Part shown: one piece after another, positions 3,055-62,462 of the stretch
How the letters are laid out: each line of letters opens with the position of its first letter
How positions within the stretch are numbered: position 1 is the stretch's first letter
Assembly (NCBI RefSeq): GCF_011046245.1
Contig: NZ_CP049241.1
Coordinates: 62,001-126,000 of the forward strand
DNA from: Allorhizobium pseudoryzae
GTDB taxonomy: Bacteria; Pseudomonadota; Alphaproteobacteria; Rhizobiales; Rhizobiaceae
Direction: 5' to 3'
Length of the DNA stretch: 64,000 nt
Notes under the pieces: generated by a model
What the model saw: only the letters and a program-made list of their open reading frames with translations
The model's database searches: none
What the model was told of the DNA's origin: nothing
Made by a program: the position numbers and the translations under genes

Positions 3055-6051
3055 TCAAAGCGGCAGCAGGGCATCCACCAGGCGTTCGATGGTTTCCGCC
3101 ACACCATCGGCCACCAGAGCCTCGCGGATCAAGCCGCGCTTGGTGGTGAAATAAGCCTCGTCCGGCAGCGTCACCCGCGCGGCGACGGCGTGCGCATGCA
3201 AAGCCGCCGCCGCGAGATCGACGTGCAGGGCTTCCGTCGGATCATATTCCGGGATGGGGAGGGTCCAGACGAGGTTGTCGAAATCACGCGGGTCTCTTTG
3301 ACCGACCGGCTGCAGGTCCTTCACGCGATCGAGGACGACCTTCGTGTTCAGGATCGCTGTGATGTAGGCGGCTTCTTCGAGCGAGTGTGCGGCTGACCAA
3401 TAGGCCTTATGATCGATAATGACGTCGTCTTCCTTTATCCAGCAGGCACTTAGTCGCGTTCCTGCTTTTGTATAGAGAACTCGTATGGACGTCCGACTCG
3501 ATTGGGCACGAAGCATTCCCATCGCATCCAGACGCTCAGCAAGGGACATGCGAGCATGGCCCTTGCCGTCCTTATTGCTGTGTTCGTTCCATTTCCCTTC
3601 AGCATCGCGAAGCCAACCAGACAGACCGCGATATCCACGCCCGTCCGCGCTGGCGGCCGTCAGGATCGTGCCATCCTCCATCGGCACCACACCCGTCACG
3701 AGATCAAGGATCCGGTAGGGCGCAACGGATTCGCCAAGTGCGATGCGGCGCAGGAACTGGCGCTCGATCGGCCCCTCCGGCGGCGTCACATCCGTCCAGG
3801 GCTTTTTGTCGAGATTGCCGATGCGGCCCCGCACGCGCGGTGCGTCACGACGGCTGCCAAGGCGTCCTGTGTTGGCCGTCTCCACGATAAAGAACCGGCG
3901 CGGCGTCAGCGTCGCACCCTGTCGGAACCGCGCCCGGTAGGGCGAAGCGGCAATCAGTGTTCGGGGTCTTGGCCATGCTGCATTGATATGCTGGAGAGCC
4001 TCCGCCGCCTCCGGCTCGGTGGCGTCCCGTCGTTTGAGAATACCCACCCAACGATCAAACTCTGCCGGTAATGGCGCGTCGCTATCGCGCTCGCCAAACA
4101 GAACGCAGGTGCTGGTCGTGCTGCTGCCGGACTGTGCCCCGAAGATCGGCCAGACCCGTTCCAGCCCCCAGGCGCCCGTGACCGCCACCTTGACGCGCTG
4201 CAGACCGCCATTGCGCATGCCGGCGAAGACCGGCGCGTTGAGCGCCGCATAGGGCAGGACCAGCGCCAGGCGTCCGCCTTCGCTGAGATAACGTTCGGCG
4301 CCGCGCGCCCAGAACAGGGCGAACATATCCTGATGCGTGGCGAGAGGTCCGCCGACCCAGAGCCCATAGCTTTGCAGCGCTTCGCGCAGGCGGTCCTTCA
4401 TCTCCGCACTCAGGTGGCGATAGACGATCCAGGGTGGATTGCCGATCAGCACATCGGCGCGATGGTCCGGATGCGACAGCCAGACCGGCCGCAGAAGGTT
4501 GCGCAGGACAAAGGTCCAGATGTGGTTGCGACCATCGAGAAAGAGCTGCTTCAGCTGAGCAAAGGTGCGGCCCAGCATGGCGGCATCTTCCGCCATGGCG
4601 CCGGCGCGGGCAATCGCATCGCGCACCGCTTCCGGCTCGGCCAGCGTATTGAGCCCGCGGTTCAGCTCGTCCAGCGCCTGCTCGAACAAGCCGAGATCGC
4701 TCGCAAGACCGGCGGGAATCCGCAAGGGCGGATCATTGGGCGGCACATCGACCAGCACTTCAGCGGAGGTTCCAAGCGGCCGGAGGTTCCACTGCATGGA
4801 ATCGCCCATATAGACCGGCACGGTCAGCACCGGCGGTCGGTCCTGCACCAGATCGCCAAGCGCCAGGAGCCAGGTGACGCGCGCGAGTGCCACCGCGACG
4901 GGATGCACGTCGATGCCGAAGACACGGTCGGCGCAGGCGGCGACAATCTCGGCGGGCGGCAGGCCTTCCTCCCGGCCCGTCGCAATCAGCCGGCGCAGCG
5001 CGTGGAACAGAAAAGTGCCTGATCCGCAGGACGGGTCGAGCACCCGTTGCTCCAGCGGGCGCGAGATAGCCGCCGAAACGACGCGCGCCGCCAGCCAGTC
5101 CGGCGTGTAATATTCGCCGAGATCATGGCGTTCGTCGGGATCGATCAGGCTTTCGTAAAGGCTTTTCAGAACATCGACTTCGACATCGCGCAGGCGAAAA
5201 CGCCGCGTCTCGGCCGCCAGCGTGCGCACCAGTTCATCGCCGCCTGCCGCAAGCAGCGGCCAGTCGAAGAAATCCGCCTCGACGGCGCCGACAATGCCTT
5301 CGTTGGCCAAAAGCCGGCCCGACAGCATCTCTGCCGGATCGTCGATTTCCAAATCAAGCACACGCGCGGCGATCGCCTTCACCAGGATCGTCAGATAGGT
5401 GTGCTGGAGAAACAGCGCATCACTGCCGACGTCATCGCCGTAGACCTGACGCAACAGGCCATCCCACAGGTCGCGCTTCAGCCGCACTTCAGGATTGGCG
5501 CCGACTTCCGCCCACAGGCGCTGAAGCTCTCCATGGGCGCGGCCGAAAGCCAGGCTGTAGCGACCGAACGCGAGCGCGACGGCAATCGGGGTGGGCATCG
5601 CCTCGGGAACAGGAGACAAAAGCGGCTCAAGCCAGCTCAGCAGCCGGTCCGGATGCTGGACATCGACTTCGTAGCGACCGATCTGCGACAGGGCGCCGCG
5701 ATCGAGCCGGTAGGCGATCAGCGTTGCGCCATCGGTGGCAAGGCCAACCGTCGTGCGGCCAGGTCCGCTGCTGCGGGCCGCATCCGCCAGATAATCGGGC
5801 ATGCGCGCGACGACATCGCGCTCTTCGCGCCGAAGGTCGCTTTTCAACTCGATCACCGTGGCGCCCCAGGCCACGTCGATGCGACCGCTGTTATCGACGA
5901 GATATCGTTCGTGCTCCAGTTCGCTGAACCGGGCGCCAAAACCATCGCGCAGCAGATCCGTAACAAGCCCGCGCAGGGCCTCGTGCCTTGGCCTTGACGC
6001 CATGGAGCGAACGATGTCCGGAAGTCTGTCTCTGCGCCAGTTGTTCGCCAT
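3055..6051 (-). CDS. fused PD-(D/E)XK nuclease and N6-adenine DNA methyltransferase (type IIG restriction-modification-like)
   Basis: A 998-residue protein. Near the N-terminus a PD-(D/E)XK motif is visible: Asp59, then Glu68-Leu-Lys70 in VIELKSDL. A helical connector follows, then an N6-adenine methyltransferase domain with SAM-binding motif I DPSCGSGTF (Asp339 onward) and catalytic motif IV NPPW (Asn538). The last 300 or so residues would hold the target-recognition region. This single-chain order (nuclease, connector, methylase, specificity) is that of type IIG/Eco57I-like enzymes, so it may cut and methylate without partners. No hsdR, hsdS or BREX genes are near. ATG 6051 is preferred over an upstream frame start at 6132 because a GGGGGG tract lies three bases upstream and the extension would overlap the divergent gene. 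Confidence 0.88.
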   Translation of the reverse strand: MANNWRRDRLPDIVRSMASRPRHEALRGLVTDLLRDGFGARFSELEHERYLVDNSGRIDVAWGATVIELKSDLRREERDVVARMPDYLADAARSSGPGRTTVGLATDGATLIAYRLDRGALSQIGRYEVDVQHPDRLLSWLEPLLSPVPEAMPTPIAVALAFGRYSLAFGRAHGELQRLWAEVGANPEVRLKRDLWDGLLRQVYGDDVGSDALFLQHTYLTILVKAIAARVLDLEIDDPAEMLSGRLLANEGIVGAVEADFFDWPLLAAGGDELVRTLAAETRRFRLRDVEVDVLKSLYESLIDPDERHDLGEYYTPDWLAARVVSAAISRPLEQRVLDPSCGSGTFLFHALRRLIATGREEGLPPAEIVAACADRVFGIDVHPVAVALARVTWLLALGDLVQDRPPVLTVPVYMGDSMQWNLRPLGTSAEVLVDVPPNDPPLRIPAGLASDLGLFEQALDELNRGLNTLAEPEAVRDAIARAGAMAEDAAMLGRTFAQLKQLFLDGRNHIWTFVLRNLLRPVWLSHPDHRADVLIGNPPWIVYRHLSAEMKDRLREALQSYGLWVGGPLATHQDMFALFWARGAERYLSEGGRLALVLPYAALNAPVFAGMRNGGLQRVKVAVTGAWGLERVWPIFGAQSGSSTTSTCVLFGERDSDAPLPAEFDRWVGILKRRDATEPEAAEALQHINAAWPRPRTLIAASPYRARFRQGATLTPRRFFIVETANTGRLGSRRDAPRVRGRIGNLDKKPWTDVTPPEGPIERQFLRRIALGESVAPYRILDLVTGVVPMEDGTILTAASADGRGYRGLSGWLRDAEGKWNEHSNKDGKGHARMSLAERLDAMGMLRAQSSRTSIRVLYTKAGTRLSACWIKEDDVIIDHKAYWSAAHSLEEAAYITAILNTKVVLDRVKDLQPVGQRDPRDFDNLVWTLPIPEYDPTEALHVDLAAAALHAHAVAARVTLPDEAYFTTKRGLIREALVADGVAETIERLVDALLPL

Positions 6052-6117
6052 TATCCCCCCTTTTTCCACTTCCGCGTCATTGCCGGGACGGAAGCGAAGG
6101 CGTAAATTGACGACATC

Positions 6118-6396
6118 ATGCGCCCGATACAAGCAGACTTATTCGCCCAAGACACCGCTGAACGCAATACGCTGTCGGAACAACAGCGCCAGGAACTCCG
6201 TGATAAGCTGGAAGCGACAATCGCGACGCTTGAGGCAACGGCGACTTTTCCCTGGCGGGACCCGCTCGACGCGGTTCACGAGGAAAACCGCTTCCAGCGC
6301 GGCAGCGACATGCTGGGCGAGGAAGGCGTGGCGCTGTGGGCACGATTCGACCGCGAGATGGAGCGGCTGCACGCAACGCAGTTTGCGTCAGACTGA
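6118..6396 (+). CDS. small conserved-looking protein divergent from the methyltransferase-nuclease
   Basis: A 92-residue soluble protein, not recognised as a named family. It has a charged helical N-terminal half (LSEQQRQELRDKLEATIATL) and a second part containing FPWRDPLDAVHEENRF and LWARFDREMERL. It is transcribed away from the large restriction-modification gene; the 66 bp between the two start codons must hold both promoters. This position would suit a regulator or accessory factor, but no helix-turn-helix is evident, so function is unassigned. It converges with the next gene with an 18 bp gap. Codon use matches the neighbours. Confidence 0.6.
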   Translation: MRPIQADLFAQDTAERNTLSEQQRQELRDKLEATIATLEATATFPWRDPLDAVHEENRFQRGSDMLGEEGVALWARFDREMERLHATQFASD

Positions 6397-6414
6397 TCCA
6401 CGAAATCGGTTAAC

Positions 6415-7080
6415 TCACACCCCGCCCGACAGGCTGAAACAGGTCATCACGGCCGAATAATGCACGGCGGCGGCGGCGATGACGAAGCCGTGCCAGATGG
6501 CGTTCTGGAAGCGCAGGCGTTCCCAGACGTGGAAGATGACGCCGAGCGAATAGATGATGCCGCCGATGACGATCAGCCAGAGGGTGATTGACGGCAAAAG
6601 TTCGGAGAGATGCGGCACCACCACGACGCCGCTCCAGCCCATGCCGAGATAAAGCAGGATGGCGAGACGATCGTAGCGGCCGGGAAACAGGCATTTCAGC
6701 GTAATCCCGATCACCGCCATGGCCCAGACGAAGACCAGCATCGACAGAATCATCGGGTCGGAGGCACCGCGCTGCAGGAAGGGCGTGTAGGTCGCCGCGA
6801 TCAGAACGTAGATCGCCGAATGGTCGAAACGGCGCAAGATCCATTTCGTCTTCGAATGCGGCCAGATGTTGTAGGTGAACGAGGTGGCGAGACAAAGCAC
6901 CAGCCCGATGCCATAGACCCAGGCGGCAGCCAATTCCCCATGGCTCGAAAAGATGGTGGCATAGACAATAAGCGCGGTCACGCCGATCAGCGCCAACACG
7001 ATGCCAATGCCGTGGATGACGCCATCGGCGACGATCTCGTGGAAATCATAGGTCCTGCCGAAGCGGAACAGGTCGGTCAT
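6415..7080 (-). CDS. trhA: TrhA/hemolysin III family membrane protein
   Basis: A 221-residue integral membrane protein with about seven hydrophobic segments. Family signatures are RFDHSAIYVLIAATYTPF after the second or third helix and FQNAIWHGFVIAAAAVHY in the last segment; the Asp/His and the late His match the metal-binding residues of PAQR-type proteins. Bacterial TrhA/YqfA members influence membrane energetics and fatty-acid homeostasis; the hemolysin name is historical. The start ATG at 7080 gives the usual family N-terminus with the FHEIVADGVIHGIGI segment. Confidence 0.9.
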   Translation of the reverse strand: MTDLFRFGRTYDFHEIVADGVIHGIGIVLALIGVTALIVYATIFSSHGELAAAWVYGIGLVLCLATSFTYNIWPHSKTKWILRRFDHSAIYVLIAATYTPFLQRGASDPMILSMLVFVWAMAVIGITLKCLFPGRYDRLAILLYLGMGWSGVVVVPHLSELLPSITLWLIVIGGIIYSLGVIFHVWERLRFQNAIWHGFVIAAAAVHYSAVMTCFSLSGGV

Positions 7081-47781: not shown

Positions 47782-48630
47782 ATGTCCAAACTTCTCTTTT
47801 CACTTCCCGTTCACGAAAAGCCTGAGATCGTCAGAGACCAGATCGAGAACATCAATTATTTCGCGCCCGGCTCGCATATCTGCATCCATATTTCGCAGCT
47901 GGCGGAGAATCTCCGAGACGAATTCCAGACGGCCTGCGACTTCGACAACGTGACGATCAACCCGGTCTCCTACGAATCGGTCTGGTCGGGCGGCATTCTC
48001 CACACCCACATCGCCAATTTCGAACATGCACTGGAGGTCGGCGTCGATTTCGACAAGATCATCCTGATTTCTTCGAACGAGCTGTTGGTCAAGCCGGGGC
48101 TCGTGGAGTATGTGGCCGCGAACATGATCGGCGCCCAGACGGAGGTCTACGAGGATTCCGCGGACTGGGGCGTATTCTGCGACAAGCATCTGCAGATGCC
48201 GGGCATGCAGGCGTTCCTTGCTCGGCTCCATCTGCCGCTGTTTTTCGGCGGTCAGGCCGAGGGACAGTTTTTCCCGAAGAACATCTTCCAGATCCTGTCC
48301 AACAACTACCGCCAATGCTTTCCGATGGCGCCGGTCGGCTTTCCGATCGAAGAAGCGATTCCCGCCACGGTCGCCGCCCGTTTTGCCTTTACCGGCGTGG
48401 ATGTGGTGCCACCGATCACCTTCTGCGATTACTGCACGAATATCGAGATCAACCAGGAGGTGATCGACCAGATCCGCCGCGGCACGGGCACGATCTTTGC
48501 CCGCACGGTGCCGCGCACGCTGCAATCGCCGCACATCAACAAGTCGGTGCTGAAGGGTGTGTTTGCGGTCAAGCGCGTTCCTCGCGAGGATTGCGACCTG
48601 CGACGCTATGTGCGCAGCCTGATGGTGTAG
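47782..48630 (+). CDS. glycosyltransferase-like protein
   Basis: A 282-residue soluble protein that starts LLFSLPVHEKPEIVRDQIEN and contains HISQLAENLRDEFQTACDFD, VGVDFDKIILISSNELLVKP and MPGMQAFLARLHLPLFFGG. The general pattern (polar start, repeated FD... acidic motif in a Rossmann-like segment) suggests a glycosyltransferase or glycan-modifying enzyme of a polysaccharide locus, but I cannot name the family. It converges with the nucleotidyltransferase operon (38 bp gap). The start MSKLLF at 47782 is chosen over the in-frame codon at 47695 because the first residues match nothing. Confidence 0.6.
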   Translation: MSKLLFSLPVHEKPEIVRDQIENINYFAPGSHICIHISQLAENLRDEFQTACDFDNVTINPVSYESVWSGGILHTHIANFEHALEVGVDFDKIILISSNELLVKPGLVEYVAANMIGAQTEVYEDSADWGVFCDKHLQMPGMQAFLARLHLPLFFGGQAEGQFFPKNIFQILSNNYRQCFPMAPVGFPIEEAIPATVAARFAFTGVDVVPPITFCDYCTNIEINQEVIDQIRRGTGTIFARTVPRTLQSPHINKSVLKGVFAVKRVPREDCDLRRYVRSLMV

Positions 48631-48668
48631 TGAGACGCCATCACCTGCGGTCAGGACTGCCTGCCTTT

Positions 48669-49364
48669 TCAGGGCAAATGAAAGATCTTGCCCGCGGGGC
48701 GGCAGTCTTTGATCGGACATGCGATCACGGTGTTGCCGCCAGCAATGACGCCATTGACCATCGGACACACAAATAGACTGCCTTTGACTGAAAGCTCTGC
48801 ACGGTGGCGGATGCTGTGCGCCGCAGCCGTCAGACAGATGTCGCTATTGCGAAATACGTAGACGCCAGCGGAGGCATGCTGGGAGATGACCTGCTTTTCG
48901 CGGGCTTCCGTGACCACTCCGTCGACAATGCGGAGATAGCTGTAGCAGGGTTCGTCCGACACGAAGGTGGGAACGATCGCACCCCAGTCCTGGCCGCCGG
49001 TGATCGGCTCGAACCCCGCCGGTCCCTCGGAGAACAGGATGTCGGCGAGATCGACGACGATCGGCTCGTCCACGGCGACCAACGCCAGCCCGGCGAGGAC
49101 CGAGAACAGGGCGCCACCGCTCAGGTCCGACAATGTGACGATGCGGCAGCCCGGCCAGGCGTTTCGCAAGAAGACCACCAGCTCTGCCGTCGCTTCGGTT
49201 TCACGCACCACGAACACGTAATCCGACGGTGCCAGGCGCGAGACCCAGGCGCGCTCGCGCAAGGCATGTTCGATCATCGGCGTTCCATCGACCTTCACCA
49301 GGGGACGCAGACCGTAACGCTGCGTCCACAGATCTGGCCCCGCCAGGGGAACGACGCACTTCAT
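48669..49364 (-). CDS. nucleotidyltransferase-like protein of a surface glycan operon
   Basis: A 231-residue Rossmann-fold protein resembling sugar-phosphate nucleotidyltransferases. The start reads VVPLAGPDLWTQRYGLRPLV, with PLAGPD instead of the usual LAAGxGTRL loop. Further landmarks are KVDGTPMIEHAL, a metal-site-like LADILF and a C-terminal FVCPMVNGVIAGG. It is the third such domain in this operon and overlaps the upstream gene by 4 bp. A group with exactly this PLAGPD start exists in polysaccharide loci; the substrate is unknown. Confidence 0.7.
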   Translation of the reverse strand: MKCVVPLAGPDLWTQRYGLRPLVKVDGTPMIEHALRERAWVSRLAPSDYVFVVRETEATAELVVFLRNAWPGCRIVTLSDLSGGALFSVLAGLALVAVDEPIVVDLADILFSEGPAGFEPITGGQDWGAIVPTFVSDEPCYSYLRIVDGVVTEAREKQVISQHASAGVYVFRNSDICLTAAAHSIRHRAELSVKGSLFVCPMVNGVIAGGNTVIACPIKDCRPAGKIFHLP

Positions 49365-50854
49365 GCGCTTTTCAGGAGTTCGAGATAGCTATCGAGATCG
49401 TTCGGCGTCCCGATCCCATGCATCGCCACGGCGGGGATTTCATAGACACCCACGCGGCCGCCCCGCTTCAGCAGATAGTTGTAGACCGGGCAGACATAGA
49501 ACTCGTTGTTGGAACGGTCATTGGCCGTGATCATGTCAACCGCAGCATCAATGAAGTCTGAGGCCCTGCGGAAATAGTAGATACCGACCGTTGCGAGATC
49601 GGATATCGCCACCTTTTCCTTCACTTCCTCGACCAAGCCGCTGTCGTTGGTGCGTGCGAACGACCATTTCGGATCCATGTCGCGGTCGCGGAAGCAGAGG
49701 ATGGAACCGTCCAGTTCCCGCGTGTCTGCATCGCGAAGGAAATCCTTGCAGTCGAAATCGATGATCTGGTCGCAGTTTGCGATCATCAAGGGCGCATCCG
49801 GATCAAGATGCGACCGGGCGGTGAGAACCGTGCACGCAGCGCCTTCCGTCAGATAGTCGATCGGGGAGAAGATCAGTTCGCGCCTGTCGAGAAGCGACTG
49901 TGCCACGATGGGTTCCGCCTCGAGATGCTCGCGGCGGGCAATCAGGATGAAGCGGGCGCCATCGACCGTCAGATTGTCCATCACCCGCTCGATCATGGTC
50001 TGGCCATCCACATCGATGAAGGGTTTGGGCTTGGCGTATCCCGCCTTCGTGAAGCGGCTTCCCAGTCCCGCCATGGGAATGACCACCTGCACGCTTGGCA
50101 AAGGCTGCGACAAGGCGGCAAACCGGCCCCGCGCTTCCGACTGGTAATGCTCGACACGCTTCGGCGAATAGAAGGAGACGTAATCATCCGCTGCAATCGA
50201 GAACTGCGCGATGCGCCCACCGGCAAGAACGACCTCGTTCAAGACGGCTGACAGATAATACTTGCCGCCGGACGGATCGGACTTCAGGATGTAGCTCTGC
50301 GCCAGCGAGACGAACTGCCGCCCGCGGCGAAAATAGTATAATCCGGCGATGGCCTTGCGGCTGAGAACACGCTTTTCCGCCGTCTCGACGATCCGTCCTT
50401 CCACATCTTCCCGAACATAGGACCATCGGGGATGGACCGACGGGAAGGTCACGACACCGGCATCTGCTTCCGAGTGGAAAAAGGCACTGGTGACCGCGCC
50501 GAGATTGGCATCGACGATCTGGTCGCCGTTGCAGATGACCAAAGGCTCATCGTCGTCAATGAGATCGACCGCCATCAGCGCCGAACAGACAGCGCCCATG
50601 GTCGGCTCGTGCAACTCGACGACGCTCGTTTCCGGGCCGGCCACAAGCCGCAGGATTGAATCGAGGCTGTACTCCAGAACATCCTGCCGCAGGACGATGA
50701 AAATGAACCGGGCTGTTGGATCCCTGCGTCGAATGGATCCGACAACGAGGGAAATCATCGGCACACCGTCGATTTCGATGAGCGGCTTTGGAAAATGGAA
50801 TTCTTCCTTCGGAAAAAGATCATCCTTGGAAGCGATGGGGATCAGGTATCTCAT
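49361..50854 (-). CDS. protein with two nucleotidyltransferase domains in tandem
   Basis: A 497-residue protein built of two related domains. The first (about 1-240) begins LIPIASKDDLFPKEEFHFPK, lacks the glycine-rich NTP loop, and has an NGDQIVD metal site. The second (about 253-497) begins VVIPMAGLGSRFTKAGYAKP with the canonical loop and has NCDQIID. The C-terminal ends match (YYFRR...). Each half resembles a cytidylyl- or sugar nucleotidyltransferase. The start codon overlaps the stop of the HAD gene (TGATG). This tandem arrangement is unusual: one half could be catalytic and the other regulatory, or each may act on a different substrate. Confidence 0.8.
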   Translation of the reverse strand: MRYLIPIASKDDLFPKEEFHFPKPLIEIDGVPMISLVVGSIRRRDPTARFIFIVLRQDVLEYSLDSILRLVAGPETSVVELHEPTMGAVCSALMAVDLIDDDEPLVICNGDQIVDANLGAVTSAFFHSEADAGVVTFPSVHPRWSYVREDVEGRIVETAEKRVLSRKAIAGLYYFRRGRQFVSLAQSYILKSDPSGGKYYLSAVLNEVVLAGGRIAQFSIAADDYVSFYSPKRVEHYQSEARGRFAALSQPLPSVQVVIPMAGLGSRFTKAGYAKPKPFIDVDGQTMIERVMDNLTVDGARFILIARREHLEAEPIVAQSLLDRRELIFSPIDYLTEGAACTVLTARSHLDPDAPLMIANCDQIIDFDCKDFLRDADTRELDGSILCFRDRDMDPKWSFARTNDSGLVEEVKEKVAISDLATVGIYYFRRASDFIDAAVDMITANDRSNNEFYVCPVYNYLLKRGGRVGVYEIPAVAMHGIGTPNDLDSYLELLKSA

Positions 50855-51480
50855 CAGTGCGCAGCCTCAATCGCCGAAATTTCATGCATGATCCGGTCGT
50901 AGGTCACATCGTTCACGGAGCCGACGACCATCACATGCGCGCCTGAGGCGCGAGCAGCCTGAATGCCGTGTTCATTGTCCTCAACGACGAGGCATTCCTC
51001 CGGACGCAGTTGCAACCGATCCATCGCCGTCAGGTAGATCTCGGGGTCTGGCTTGGCCTTGGTGACATCCTGGTTGGACAGAAAGAAATCCAGATAGCGC
51101 AGCAGATTGGACTGCTGCATCATCGCTTCGACCGTGGAGCGGACGGAGTTGGAGCAAACCACAATGTGCTTGCCGTCCCGCTGCAGACGCCCCAGCGCAT
51201 ATTCGTGATGAAAGACAGGTCGGCATTTCTCGATAATGACCCGGTAGGTCATCTTCTGCTTCAACGCGTTGAGAAAGTCGTGAAGCTTGGGAGAAAGGCC
51301 GCGGGTGCGGCTCAGCAGTTCCAGCTTCTTGCGCGTCGGAAGACCGTCATAGACGGCGAGATGCTCCGTCCGACTGATGTTCAGACCGAACACGGCCAGC
51401 GCATCATTCAGCGTCTCGTAATGCCAGTCCTTGGCGTCAATGAGGACGCCATCCATATCGAAAAGAACCGCTTTTATCAC
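50854..51480 (-). CDS. HAD-superfamily phosphatase
   Basis: A 208-residue HAD enzyme: nucleophile Asp in VLFDMDGVLIDAKDWHYETL, motif II Ser in HIVVCSNSV, motif III Lys in QDVTKAKPDPEIYLTA, motif IV acidic residues in CLVVEDNEHGIQAARASGAH. The cap is of the small alpha type seen in sugar-phosphate phosphatases. GTG at 51480 is the start because it follows the GDPD gene by 19 bp and matches the family start (GTG ATA AAA GCG). Probably removes phosphate from a biosynthetic intermediate in this operon. Confidence 0.85.
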   Translation of the reverse strand: MIKAVLFDMDGVLIDAKDWHYETLNDALAVFGLNISRTEHLAVYDGLPTRKKLELLSRTRGLSPKLHDFLNALKQKMTYRVIIEKCRPVFHHEYALGRLQRDGKHIVVCSNSVRSTVEAMMQQSNLLRYLDFFLSNQDVTKAKPDPEIYLTAMDRLQLRPEECLVVEDNEHGIQAARASGAHVMVVGSVNDVTYDRIMHEISAIEAAH

Positions 51481-51499
51481 AGCGCCCCACCAACCCTGC

Positions 51500-52120
51500 T
51501 CAATTGAAAAAATTCGCAGCCTGATCCGGCAGATCCGTACAGATCTCCAGACGGTCGCTGCGCAGACCACGCCACGAGTCCCATGCGGCCCGGTGATCGC
51601 GCCCATGAAGCTCGGGCGACACCAGAGCCACGCGCCTGCCCGCCGCAAGATGCTGCTCGACAACCTCGGGGACAATCCAGTCCCCGTAGAACGCATCCAA
51701 CCAAACGCCCTGCGCCTGATCCAGAAAAGCAGGAACCGTCTCAACCTCGGACTGGCGCGTATAGGTGCAGAAACCACCCCGCACATACCCGAGCGCGTCC
51801 GGCACAGCCATGTCGAAACAGAAGAGATCGTCGACCGGGTTTTCCGCTAGATCCGACCGGAGAAGCTTTTGAAGGCCGTCCGCCTTGATGTTGAGGGCAA
51901 TTCTGCCCGCACCCGGATAGGATCGATGCAAACGGAGAAAATCCGCAAAGGACATGAGCCCATCACCGACCGGCACATCATGAGCGATTCTGAGGATACC
52001 CTCCTGATCCCGCACATCCGTCTCCACGCCAAATCCGCCCTCAAACGCCCGGCGGAATGCCACTTCGCTATTCTTCTCGGCAGGCGAGAGCCACCAGCCC
52101 CGATGCGCAAGTATCTTCAC
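51500..52120 (-). CDS. glycerophosphodiester phosphodiesterase-like protein
   Basis: A 206-residue GDPD-fold protein. Catalytic residues are present: the HRG motif in ILAHRGWWLSPAEKNSEVAF, Glu and Asp in GVETDVRD, and His in IAHDVP. It is shorter than canonical GDPD enzymes and has no signal peptide. It heads the operon of HAD and nucleotidyltransferases, so it may open or remodel a phosphodiester in a glycan precursor rather than act on phospholipid. ATG 52120. Confidence 0.8.
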   Translation of the reverse strand: MKILAHRGWWLSPAEKNSEVAFRRAFEGGFGVETDVRDQEGILRIAHDVPVGDGLMSFADFLRLHRSYPGAGRIALNIKADGLQKLLRSDLAENPVDDLFCFDMAVPDALGYVRGGFCTYTRQSEVETVPAFLDQAQGVWLDAFYGDWIVPEVVEQHLAAGRRVALVSPELHGRDHRAAWDSWRGLRSDRLEICTDLPDQAANFFN

Positions 52121-52448
52121 AAACCCTCTCCAGAGACCGATCCATTAAGACTGCAAAATCAATTTCTTCCGGGACAAAAGCCTGCGGAGCGAACTACTTC
52201 AGTGCCGACCATCCGAAAGCCAAACGACTCCTTGAAACTGAACGTTACAGTAGAATTTTCATCTTGCTCGTGGCTGGATTTGTACCTTCTGGCAAACACG
52301 AGACAGGCCTTGCGCGACAGGGGAGTGGCAAACACATCCCATCCGCCCGACACGTCATGTGGGCGCGTGCCGACCCGTGCCCGTGCCACCCATTGTGCGG
52401 CGGAGCGAGGCGACCCATATTGCCGTTTCGTCAAAGAACCGGATCCGC
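52121..52448. other. divergent promoter stretch with lowered GC
   Basis: About 330 bp between the GDPD gene and the HNH gene. It is visibly AT-rich in the first half (for example GACTGCAAAATCAATTTCTTC) and holds no convincing gene. It should contain the promoter of the glycan operon; the low GC fits acquired DNA. Confidence 0.5.
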
Positions 52449-52805
52449 ATGGCCCGCAAACACCGCGAAAAGATCGCCGCCTGGTACAGACCGCCGGAAG
52501 AGGTGGTCTGCCCGCTGTGCAGCCGTCCCATTCCGGAAGACCAGCGGGACGAGCACCACCTCGTGCCGAAGAGCCGCGGCGGGCGGGAAACACAAACGCT
52601 GCACCGCATCTGCCACCGGCAGATCCACGCGCTGTTTTCCGAAGCCGAGTTGGAAACCAACTATTCCAGCGTGGAGGCGCTGCTGGCCCATCCGGACATG
52701 GCCAAGTTCATCCGCTGGGTCTCGACCAAGCCGCCCGGCTTTTTCGACGGCACGCGGCGCAGCAACCGACGGCGCGAGACGGGGAAACCGGCGGCGCGCT
52801 GGTGA
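52449..52805 (+). CDS. HNH endonuclease-type small protein
   Basis: A 118-residue protein with Cys pairs for zinc (CPLCSRPIPEDQRDEHHLVP, then ICHRQIHALF) and the HNH core EHHLVPKSRGG. It is a stand-alone HNH domain protein like those found widely in proteobacteria; possible roles are DNA repair, mobile-element homing or defence. The start at 52449 follows the family; a longer frame from 52359 is not supported. No transposase is adjacent. Confidence 0.85.
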   Translation: MARKHREKIAAWYRPPEEVVCPLCSRPIPEDQRDEHHLVPKSRGGRETQTLHRICHRQIHALFSEAELETNYSSVEALLAHPDMAKFIRWVSTKPPGFFDGTRRSNRRRETGKPAARW

Positions 52806-60568: not shown

Positions 60569-61264
60569 TTACTGCCACACCACGATCCGTGCCTTGTTCG
60601 GCACGCGTTCGTAGAGGTCGATGATGTCCTGGTTCATCAGGCGCACGCAGCCCGAGGAGACGGCCTTGCCGATGGAGTTCCATTCGGGATTGCCGTGCAG
60701 GCGGTAGAGCGTGTCCTTGCCATTCTGGAAGATGTAGAGCGCGCGGGCGCCGAGCGGGTTCATCAGGCCGGGTGCCATGCTGCCATTGGCGGCGGAATAT
60801 TTGGCGAGCTCGGGCTGGCGGGCGATCATTTCCTCCGGCGGGGTCCATTTCGGCCATTTCTGCCGCCACTGGATGACGCCCTCGCCCTGCCAGGCAAAGC
60901 CTTCGCGGCCGATGCCGACGCCGTAGCGCATGGCGGTCTCGCCGCCCGATTCGACCAGATAGAGGAAACGCGATTTCGTATCGACGATGACGGTGCCCGC
61001 CGGTTCGCCGGTGATGTTGGCCACCCGCTGGCGGTAGAAGCGCGGCGGGATCTTCCAATAGGGCACGGCGGGGATGACAAAACCGCCATCCACCATCTGG
61101 CCGTAGGTGGCATCGAGTTCGGGAGAGCGGCCCGTCGGCGGCGCCGGCAGTTGCGGGGCGGCGATGGCGATGGGGCGGAGACCGGGCGGGCCGGAGGAGG
61201 CGCAGCCGGCAAGCGTGGAGGCGGTACCGACGGCGAGCAAGCTCAGGAGACGGCGGCGGTTCAT
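60569..61264 (-). CDS. L,D-transpeptidase lipoprotein (YkuD)
   Basis: A 231-residue protein with a lipobox (LAVGTASTLAGC) after a short RR-containing N-terminus, then a YkuD catalytic domain with the His of LYRLHGNPEW and the Cys of SSGCVRLMNQDI. It makes 3-3 peptidoglycan cross-links or attaches proteins to the wall. ATG 61264 gives the usual lipoprotein signal; ATG 61279 is possible. A second paralog lies upstream in the same direction. Confidence 0.9.
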   Translation of the reverse strand: MNRRRLLSLLAVGTASTLAGCASSGPPGLRPIAIAAPQLPAPPTGRSPELDATYGQMVDGGFVIPAVPYWKIPPRFYRQRVANITGEPAGTVIVDTKSRFLYLVESGGETAMRYGVGIGREGFAWQGEGVIQWRQKWPKWTPPEEMIARQPELAKYSAANGSMAPGLMNPLGARALYIFQNGKDTLYRLHGNPEWNSIGKAVSSGCVRLMNQDIIDLYERVPNKARIVVWQ

Positions 61265-61438
61265 AGTGTCTGAAATCATGGGGCCGGGTTTACTTCTTGA
61301 CTGGAGACGGCGGACGATGGAACGCGAACCAACGGATGGTCCCGACTTTGGTTCCGCAATTGTGGCCAGAAGAAGTATAGGGAGGCTTAATGCGGCGGCC
61401 AGAGGCGGTCGCCGCACCTTATCGTGACCCTCGTGTGA

Positions 61439-62263
61439 TCAGATCACCACAATCGGCGTGTTGGAGGGCACTCGATCGAAGAGATCAATCACGTCCTGGT
61501 TCAGCAGGCGCACGCAACCCGACGAGGTCGCCTTGCCGATCGACTGCCAGTCCGGCGTGCCGTGCACGCGGTAAAGCGTGTCCTTGCCGTCCTTGAAGAT
61601 GTAGAGCGCACGCGCACCGAGCGGATTATTGAGACCGGGCATGGCGCCGCCCTGCGCTGCGGAAAACTTCGCCAGTTCCGGCTGGCGCTGAACCATGTCG
61701 TTCGGCGGCGTCCAGCGCGGCCATTTCGCCTTCCACTGGATTACGCCGCGGCCCGACCAGGCAAACCCGTCGCGACCGATGCCGACGCCGTAGCGGATCG
61801 CCTTGCCGTTCGGCTGGACGAAGTAGAGGAAACGCGCCTTGGTATCGACGACGATGGTGCCCGGCGCCTCATTGGTGCGGTAATCCACCTCCTGGCGCAG
61901 ATAGCGGGCATCGATGCGCGAATAGGGAATGGCCGGCAGGGTAAACCCATCGTCGCGCAGGCTGGCATAATAGGCGCGGTGCACCGGGTTCGACACCGGG
62001 ATGCCATAGGTCTGGTGGAACTGCGTCTGGTAGAGGTCGCGCTTCTGCGGGATCGGCTGGCGTTCCGGCACCGGCTGCGGCTGCACGGGCACCTGCGCCG
62101 CATAGGCGGGATTGAGGAAGACGGGCGCCGTTTCCTGCACGAAGACATCCGGGTTCATGCGGCTGGTATCCGTGACGAGAATACAGCCGGACAGGCCGCC
62201 TGCCATCAGGGGCAGCGAAATCAGCGCAGCAATGCGGGACAGATGTCGGGCAGCAAGGGTCAT
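61439..62263 (-). CDS. L,D-transpeptidase lipoprotein (YkuD), second paralog
   Basis: A 274-residue lipoprotein: signal with lipobox LMAGGLSGC, a Gln/Pro-rich linker, and the YkuD domain with His in TLYRVHGTPDW and Cys in TSSGCVRLLNQDVI. The catalytic halves of the two paralogs are similar and the N-terminal linkers are not. GGAAG precedes ATG 62263. Tandem paralogs suggest gene duplication. Confidence 0.92.
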   Translation of the reverse strand: MTLAARHLSRIAALISLPLMAGGLSGCILVTDTSRMNPDVFVQETAPVFLNPAYAAQVPVQPQPVPERQPIPQKRDLYQTQFHQTYGIPVSNPVHRAYYASLRDDGFTLPAIPYSRIDARYLRQEVDYRTNEAPGTIVVDTKARFLYFVQPNGKAIRYGVGIGRDGFAWSGRGVIQWKAKWPRWTPPNDMVQRQPELAKFSAAQGGAMPGLNNPLGARALYIFKDGKDTLYRVHGTPDWQSIGKATSSGCVRLLNQDVIDLFDRVPSNTPIVVI

Positions 62264-62462
62264 GGAGGAACTTCCGGCAGATGACGTCCTGCCGACCATG
62301 GCAGTTGCGGCTGGCGCGAGGCTTTCGCCAAAGGGCAATCATCATGCTGTCAGCGGAATTCACTTGAGCCGGACGGCAGGCCATACTTCAACGGAAGCCA
62401 CACAGGACAGGCCGGCAGGCGAGTAGACAAGCACGCACAAGCACACACAAGGGAGACAACCG

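Follow-up and report, generated by a model that had tools for sequence, protein, structure and literature searches.

A conserved cassette of GDPD-like, HAD and nucleotidyltransferase genes in Allorhizobium pseudoryzae and its possible role in activating a surface-glycan precursor

The locus described here lies in a 64,000-nucleotide stretch of the Allorhizobium pseudoryzae genome (the window; contig NZ_CP049241.1, positions 62,001 to 126,000), and consists of four minus-strand genes, encoding a GDPD-like phosphodiesterase, a HAD enzyme, a tandem nucleotidyltransferase and a single nucleotidyltransferase-like protein, together with a convergent plus-strand gene (Table 1). The HAD gene lies 19 bp downstream of the GDPD-like stop, the tandem nucleotidyltransferase gene overlaps the HAD gene by 1 bp, the single nucleotidyltransferase-like gene overlaps the tandem gene by 4 bp, and 38 bp separate the plus-strand gene from the end of the single gene. 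The genes and spacing given in an initial annotation of this DNA were thereby confirmed, and its statement about the loop motifs is exact: the first (N-type) domain of the tandem protein has ASKDDLF at the loop position, the second (C-type) domain has GLGSR, and the single (S-type) protein has PLAGPD. The gene set is not a chance arrangement, because both it and its loop pattern are found again in distant genomes. Nothing useful came from scans for Rfam families, promoters and repeats.

Table 1. Genes, domains and loop motifs of the locus (positions within the window)
Feature	Position	Strand	Remark
GDPD-like phosphodiesterase	51500..52120	minus	206 aa, GTG start
HAD-IA enzyme, PGMB/YqaB type, phosphatase or phosphomutase	50854..51480	minus	GTG start assigned
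Tandem nucleotidyltransferase, N-type + C-type domain	49361..50854	minus	497 aa
N-type domain, degenerate	50120..50854	minus	residues 1-245 of tandem protein
ASKDDLF at loop position, N-type domain	50813..50833	minus	sequence reading
C-type domain, canonical	49364..50098	minus	residues 253-497 of tandem protein
GLGSR loop codons, C-type domain	50054..50068	minus	sequence reading
Single S-type nucleotidyltransferase-like protein, degenerate	48669..49364	minus	231 aa
PLAGPD codons, S-type protein	49332..49349	minus	sequence reading
Convergent orphan gene, suspected transferase	47782..48630	plus	282 aa

The initial annotation regarded these genes as one unit; they turned out to be the opposite of rarely together, and the GDPD-like, HAD and nucleotidyltransferase genes almost certainly form a conserved unit. 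Genomes were scanned with the tandem protein alone, which yielded 120 confirmed loci, of which the best 80 were kept. These span Rhizobiaceae, Caulobacterales, Azospirillum, Bacteroidota, Nitrospirota, Aquificota, Myxococcota, Bdellovibrionota, Campylobacterota, cyanobacteria, Patescibacteria-type lineages, Pelagibacteraceae and archaea. These 80 cannot be counted as independent cases, as 27 of them carry HAD-nucleotidyltransferase fusions (many in Pelagibacteraceae; 21 of the 27 with a short GDPD-like gene) and about ten are from close Rhizobium strains; furthermore, many, the archaeal ones included, come from metagenome or single-cell assemblies, in which misassigned contigs are possible. 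On the same strand and within 3.5 kb, a GDPD-like gene was found in 72 of the 80 loci, a HAD gene in 76 and both in 71, as counted with profiles built from those same loci. In a less biased test, 190 alphaproteobacterial genomes were searched with a GDPD-like profile in which the short GDPD-like form is not represented. It matched the A. pseudoryzae genome itself and six others with E values no higher than 2e-31 over at least 186 of 209 positions, and in all six a tandem-protein match lies on the same contig within 5 kb of the GDPD-like match. Three of these pairs (genomes G069, G106 and G207) are tight, with distances of 0.03-0.7 kb and a best identity of 46-49%. Eight more profile matches, partial and weaker (E 5e-14 to 9e-11), fell in genomes without a nucleotidyltransferase match, and are presumably ordinary GDPDs. 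The idea that the GDPD-like gene is a random neighbour was ruled out by the 71 loci and the six linked genomes. Of 8000 scored candidates, 7831 match the tandem protein with an E value no higher than 0.001, distant kin included.

The order of the genes varies among the loci. The commonest string, GDPD, HAD, N-C, S, was seen in 14 of the 80, a count based on simple gene picking that misses some genes, e.g. in locus L004, where they are seen by direct view. In the myxococcal locus L038, GDPD, HAD, N, C and S are five genes followed by WavE, and in L039 (Fidelibacterota) the HAD and an N-like domain form one protein. L034, L035 and L037 have a small cupin gene placed between N and C, and a cupin occurs within 3 kb in 11 of the 80 loci; this protein of about 108 aa (L034:8893-9219 and ten more loci), placed between or beside the nucleotidyltransferases, is possibly a sugar isomerase or epimerase. 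Directly upstream of the GDPD-like gene of Agrobacterium vitis and relatives (L008-L012, about 5206-6675), we also noticed a protein of 398-486 aa with a VDAE stretch, which had no Pfam match in the one member scanned and may be a transferase of that lineage.

Because of the pattern in which catalytic residues are conserved, the three core enzymes, i.e. the GDPD-like enzyme, the HAD enzyme and the C-type domain, look active, and the N-type domain and S-type protein do not. The HAD protein matches Pfam HAD_2 (3e-33) and scores above the cut-off of TIGR01509, and below those of the beta-phosphoglucomutase models TIGR02009 (3.2e-34; 118.7 versus 153.35) and TIGR01990 (87.9 versus 189.4). Its residues D9, D11, H21, T50, K53, K75, N112, K144, E168 and D169 are found in 100% of 68 sequences, and the nucleophile and acid Asp, the Lys and the Glu-Asp of HAD-IA hydrolases are all present. 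In a pairwise alignment Thr50, present in 68 of 68 sequences, faces an Arg of beta-phosphoglucomutase (beta-PGM), which we take to be Arg49, presumably binding the second phosphate. A true beta-PGM is supported neither by the scores, which are below cut-off, nor by the Arg position, which is Thr in all 68; the enzyme may still be a mutase.

The GDPD-like protein of the window has no PF03009 match up to E 10 and no other Pfam match. On the other hand, a longer relative in L074 matches PF03009 at 4.5e-12, a profile search reached 1o1z with E 1.9e-13, and the predicted fold supports the GDPD reading. H6, R7, E33, D35, H47, K79, D103, W140, D142, H172, C194 and T195 are invariant in 40 sequences. 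The protein thus resembles GDPDs of the GlpQ/UgpQ type in its TIM barrel and its catalytic H-R, E-x-D and H motifs (His, Arg, Glu-Asp and His). It differs from them in the absence of a PF03009 match, in its own motifs PELH and CTD, and in having N-x-K or H-x-K in place of E-x-K: the Glu of E-x-K, presumably the third acidic metal ligand of GDPDs and present in 1o1z, 3no3 and 2pz0, is Asn in 32 and His in 8 of the 40 rows.

As the HAD and the nucleotidyltransferase are fused into one protein in many genomes, the HAD enzyme would act just before the nucleotidyltransferase, and would remove or move a phosphate to give a sugar- or polyol-1-phosphate. The GDPD-like enzyme may open a phosphodiester, and so either supply the phosphorylated intermediate or clear a by-product. 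A parallel operon bears on this choice. In the same-genus genome G019 (L108:4847-9531), two copies of the plus-strand gene face another HAD and nucleotidyltransferase operon, which encodes a PGMB/YqaB-type HAD, an APH-type kinase and a nucleotidyltransferase with a weak HAD-like C-terminal match, and a search of 15 kb there showed no GDPD-like gene. Because a kinase stands in that one operon and a GDPD-like gene in ours, the enzyme might be the source of phosphate, a tentative suggestion that we consider rather doubtful. The alternative, in which the GDPD-like and HAD enzymes do not feed the nucleotidyltransferase but work as a repair pair on its by-products, clearing a wrong or cyclic phosphodiester, is unlikely: the three genes would remain linked on this account too, and a PGMB/YqaB-like HAD with Thr at the beta-PGM Arg position favours a phosphatase, but the fusion of HAD and nucleotidyltransferase suggests a sequential biosynthetic step, and the kinase of the G019 operon suggests supply.

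The tandem protein matches Pfam NTP_transferase (4.9e-14) and NTP_transf_3 (1.7e-13) in two stretches each, and the S-type protein has only a sub-threshold match, to NTP_transf_3 (0.0013; 19.4 bits versus the 27 needed). Residues were counted in sets of N, C and S domains defined by gene position and not by the loop, our own protein included. All 120 C domains keep both loop Gly, the PKP Lys, D107, E158 and K159; the loop Arg and the GTPxD Asp are kept in 119 each and the loop Ser in 110. The C-type domain has the fold, GxGxxR-type loop, PKP and metal Asp pair of PF00483. In contrast, the N-type domain and the S-type protein do not have this full set of motifs. None of 119 N domains retains the second loop Gly, the loop Arg or the second metal (last) Asp, the last being replaced by R (85), K (31) or L (3), and N105, D107, Q108, E158 and K159 are present in all 119; 29 N domains from the loci agree with this pattern. 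In all 25 S proteins the second loop Gly is Asp and the second metal (last) Asp is gone, with D104, D107, E158 and K159 kept in 25 of 25. The initial annotation had allowed for one non-catalytic domain; two of the three are in fact degenerate. By analogy with RmlA-type enzymes, E158-K159 would hold the sugar phosphate and the loop the triphosphate. Since the expected sugar-phosphate residues are kept and the triphosphate loop and second metal ligand are lost, the N domain and S protein are most likely non-catalytic partners, i.e. regulatory or assembly subunits, of the C-type enzyme, and it is highly probable that neither works as a nucleotidyltransferase.

In a maximum-likelihood tree of 77 domains, three clades stand out, each of which crosses phyla: one of S types (100/100, 14 rows), one that contains the C types of most multi-copy loci (100/99, 21 rows) and one with most of the N types (96/83, 19 rows). 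A recent local duplication as the origin of the three domains was therefore ruled out. Exceptions are the N types of L036, L038 and L039, placed next to the N clade, and the C-like domains of L041, L042 and L067, which do not group with the C clade; the tree therefore does not prove a single origin for each type. The separate cross-phylum clades of N and S, their joint retention with C in L038 and L039, and the constraint on D107, E158 and K159 in every position-defined member would also suit a scheme in which all three domains are active, N and S by way of an unusual loop, to make two or three nucleoside diphosphate (NDP) precursors. We regard this as improbable, because the second loop Gly and the second metal Asp are absent from every position-defined N and S domain, and because loci with a single nucleotidyltransferase have a loop of the G-x-G-x-R type.

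The cassette was probably acquired, as the initial annotation had suggested from the base composition, and this is supported by both low GC and patchy presence within the genus. The GC content of positions 47782-52120 is 58.9% versus 63.0% for the window, which places it in the lowest 2.5% of 4.3-kb windows, and that of 52121-52450 is 55.2%; GC at third codon positions (GC3) is 0.66-0.79 in the five genes versus 0.79-0.86 in seven other window genes. The tandem protein was found in four of 35 other same-genus genomes, a fifth (G034) has two separate matches in a two-gene form, and the GDPD-like and HAD genes adjoin the nucleotidyltransferase in all five of these genomes. Complete sets are carried by plasmids of Pseudomonas aeruginosa PA83, Scandinavium and Ruegeria, with ABC transporter, O-antigen ligase, flippase and WavE genes close by in differing combinations. 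The PA83 cassette (L084:11998-20443) is complete, with two nucleotidyltransferases, cupin, GMC oxidoreductase and WavE; its plasmid is typed as conjugative, and insertion-sequence genes flank the cassette on both sides. An E. coli genome with the cassette was sought at the DNA level with two parts of the Scandinavium locus as queries, and no match appeared within the limit set by DNA identity. Furthermore, a match that covers 80% or more of the fusion protein is present in 11 phage records, named Synechococcus phages; in the nine best, identity is 66-72%. In the one phage examined, S-8S55 (L087:5001-8158), the fusion is accompanied by a second HAD and a short GDPD-like gene, and the cassette adjoins GT6, GT11 and epimerase genes.

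The convergent gene had been called glycosyltransferase-like, which sequence searches could not confirm: Pfam gave no credible match for the 34 members scanned (best E 0.023), and a PDB profile search gave none either. A protein search returned 71 proteins, our own copy included, none with a functional name, and those with an organism given are mostly from Rhizobiaceae. The gene is likewise convergent to the cassette in L004, L006 and L007, lies about 5 kb from it on an Acetobacter plasmid, and stands away from it in G003 and G032. Its adjacency in few loci, its distance in others and its presence in 4 of 60 genomes of the relatives search, own included, do not support it as an essential member. 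It may encode a transferase that uses the cassette product; that this is a glycosyltransferase is a guess. An open reading frame of 1740 aa, with ALTTAQ repeats in 57 stretches (PF20080; L117:8768-13990), lies beside a homologue of this gene.

A surface-glycan role of the cassette is likely. In many related loci the surroundings include glycosyltransferase, epimerase, WavE, O-antigen ligase and ABC-transporter genes, and WavE was found within 6 kb in 17 of the 80 loci. Among 131 flanking proteins (one per cluster; no control set), glycosyltransferase families 1 and 2 have eight members each, followed by epimerase (6), RmlD (5), FkbM methyltransferase (4), WavE (4) and Polysacc_synt (3). Taken together, the locus may be a mobile precursor-activation cassette, in which the C-type domain would couple the sugar- or polyol-1-phosphate delivered by the HAD step to a nucleotide and so produce an NDP-activated donor for surface-glycan synthesis; we put the chances of the mechanism as a whole at about even.

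Several observations weigh against this interpretation. Nine of the 80 loci are without one of the genes on the same strand within 3.5 kb (L022, L040, L043, L045, L046, L057, L066, L067 and L080), about five of them being at contig ends, and L046 and L067 having a GDPD-like gene on the opposite strand. The other three linked genomes have loose pairs (G214, 1.6 kb; G242, 4.5 kb on the opposite strand; G082, 4.7 kb) with identities of 25-34%, and no GDPD-like match was obtained in three of ten nucleotidyltransferase-positive genomes (G128, G189 and G217) with the profile that excludes the short form. The NCBIfam scores for all specific functions are under cut-off, mostly far under; motif loss in N and S is no proof of activity loss; and the phosphate-supply idea draws on the single alternative operon of G019, whose nucleotidyltransferase is distantly related. 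The phosphodiester-linked product put forward initially is hypothetical. The tally of flanking proteins lacks a control set. None of ten other window genes tested is a glycan-polymer gene: near the cassette are two alpha/beta hydrolases, an HNH-like protein, YjdM and HerA, and the five others encode two L,D-transpeptidases, an MFS transporter, a D-Ala-D-Ala carboxypeptidase and a short-chain dehydrogenase. The four neighbours tested in A. vitis L009 are two regulators, a ribonucleotide reductase and a chemoreceptor. A search of the genome for WavE found none, a weak negative as the controls were equally silent. Because of these neighbours in the window and in A. vitis, the glycan role in this host rests on the relatives, and the initial surface-glycan claim finds its support there and not in the local surroundings. 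The same neighbours would fit phospholipid-headgroup scavenging or another role apart from surface glycans in the host, which is very unlikely, since glycan genes surround these genes in other bacteria, on plasmids and in a cyanophage. As a separate observation, the two L,D-transpeptidase (YkuD) genes are adjacent on the minus strand at 60569-62338 and look like a duplication.

Several known systems resemble parts of the proposed cassette. In the GDP-heptose pathway, GmhB and HddC act as a HAD phosphatase followed by a sugar-1-phosphate nucleotidyltransferase, the same order of steps as proposed here, and the C domain has weak PDB matches to 5xhw and 6jq8, a 'putative 6-deoxy-D-mannoheptose pathway protein' (1.4e-4 and 2.2e-4). 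However, the cassette operon has no sugar kinase or isomerase gene and a GDPD-like gene instead, and the score against the HddC equivalog is 19.8 versus a cut-off of 300, with the match on the N domain. GMPPA/GMPPB and the ADP-glucose pyrophosphorylase subunits are heteromeric nucleotidyltransferases with a degenerate partner, and in both these and the cassette a catalytic domain stands beside paralogues without catalytic motifs; the putative complex of the cassette differs in having two degenerate paralogues, one of them fused to the catalytic domain. By record names, C-type relatives on plasmids are called 'glycosyltransferase family 2 protein' and distant ones 'capsular biosynthesis protein', which likens them to the BcbE type (IPR016873), a name that originates from Pasteurella multocida. 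The C-type domains retain all nucleotidyltransferase motifs and the predicted fold, and because of these results a glucosyltransferase role is disfavoured for them. Such a role was proposed for a BcbE-like protein with IPR016873 listed in a Vibrio capsule locus (PMC11641403).

No functional description of the module was found in the open-licence literature, and the cassette, which appears real, conserved and mobile, is apparently uncharacterised. Its active sites and neighbours are kept in lineages such as Pelagibacter and Patescibacteria as well as in archaeal assemblies, on plasmids and in cyanophages. A bolder and improbable version of the proposal is a kinase-free precursor pathway started from a phosphodiester, for example from glycerophospho-compounds of membrane turnover, in which the GDPD-like enzyme would release a phosphorylated alcohol or sugar, the HAD enzyme would trim it, and a heteromeric nucleotidyltransferase of one working and two degenerate sensing subunits would activate it; if true, the supply of surface glycans would be linked to membrane turnover in Bacteria, Archaea and cyanophages alike. 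With the two conserved degenerate nucleotidyltransferases, the idea of pseudoenzyme partners can be tested in a bacterial system, and the identity of the product would help to annotate many loci that are now called 'glycosyltransferase family 2' or 'hypothetical'.

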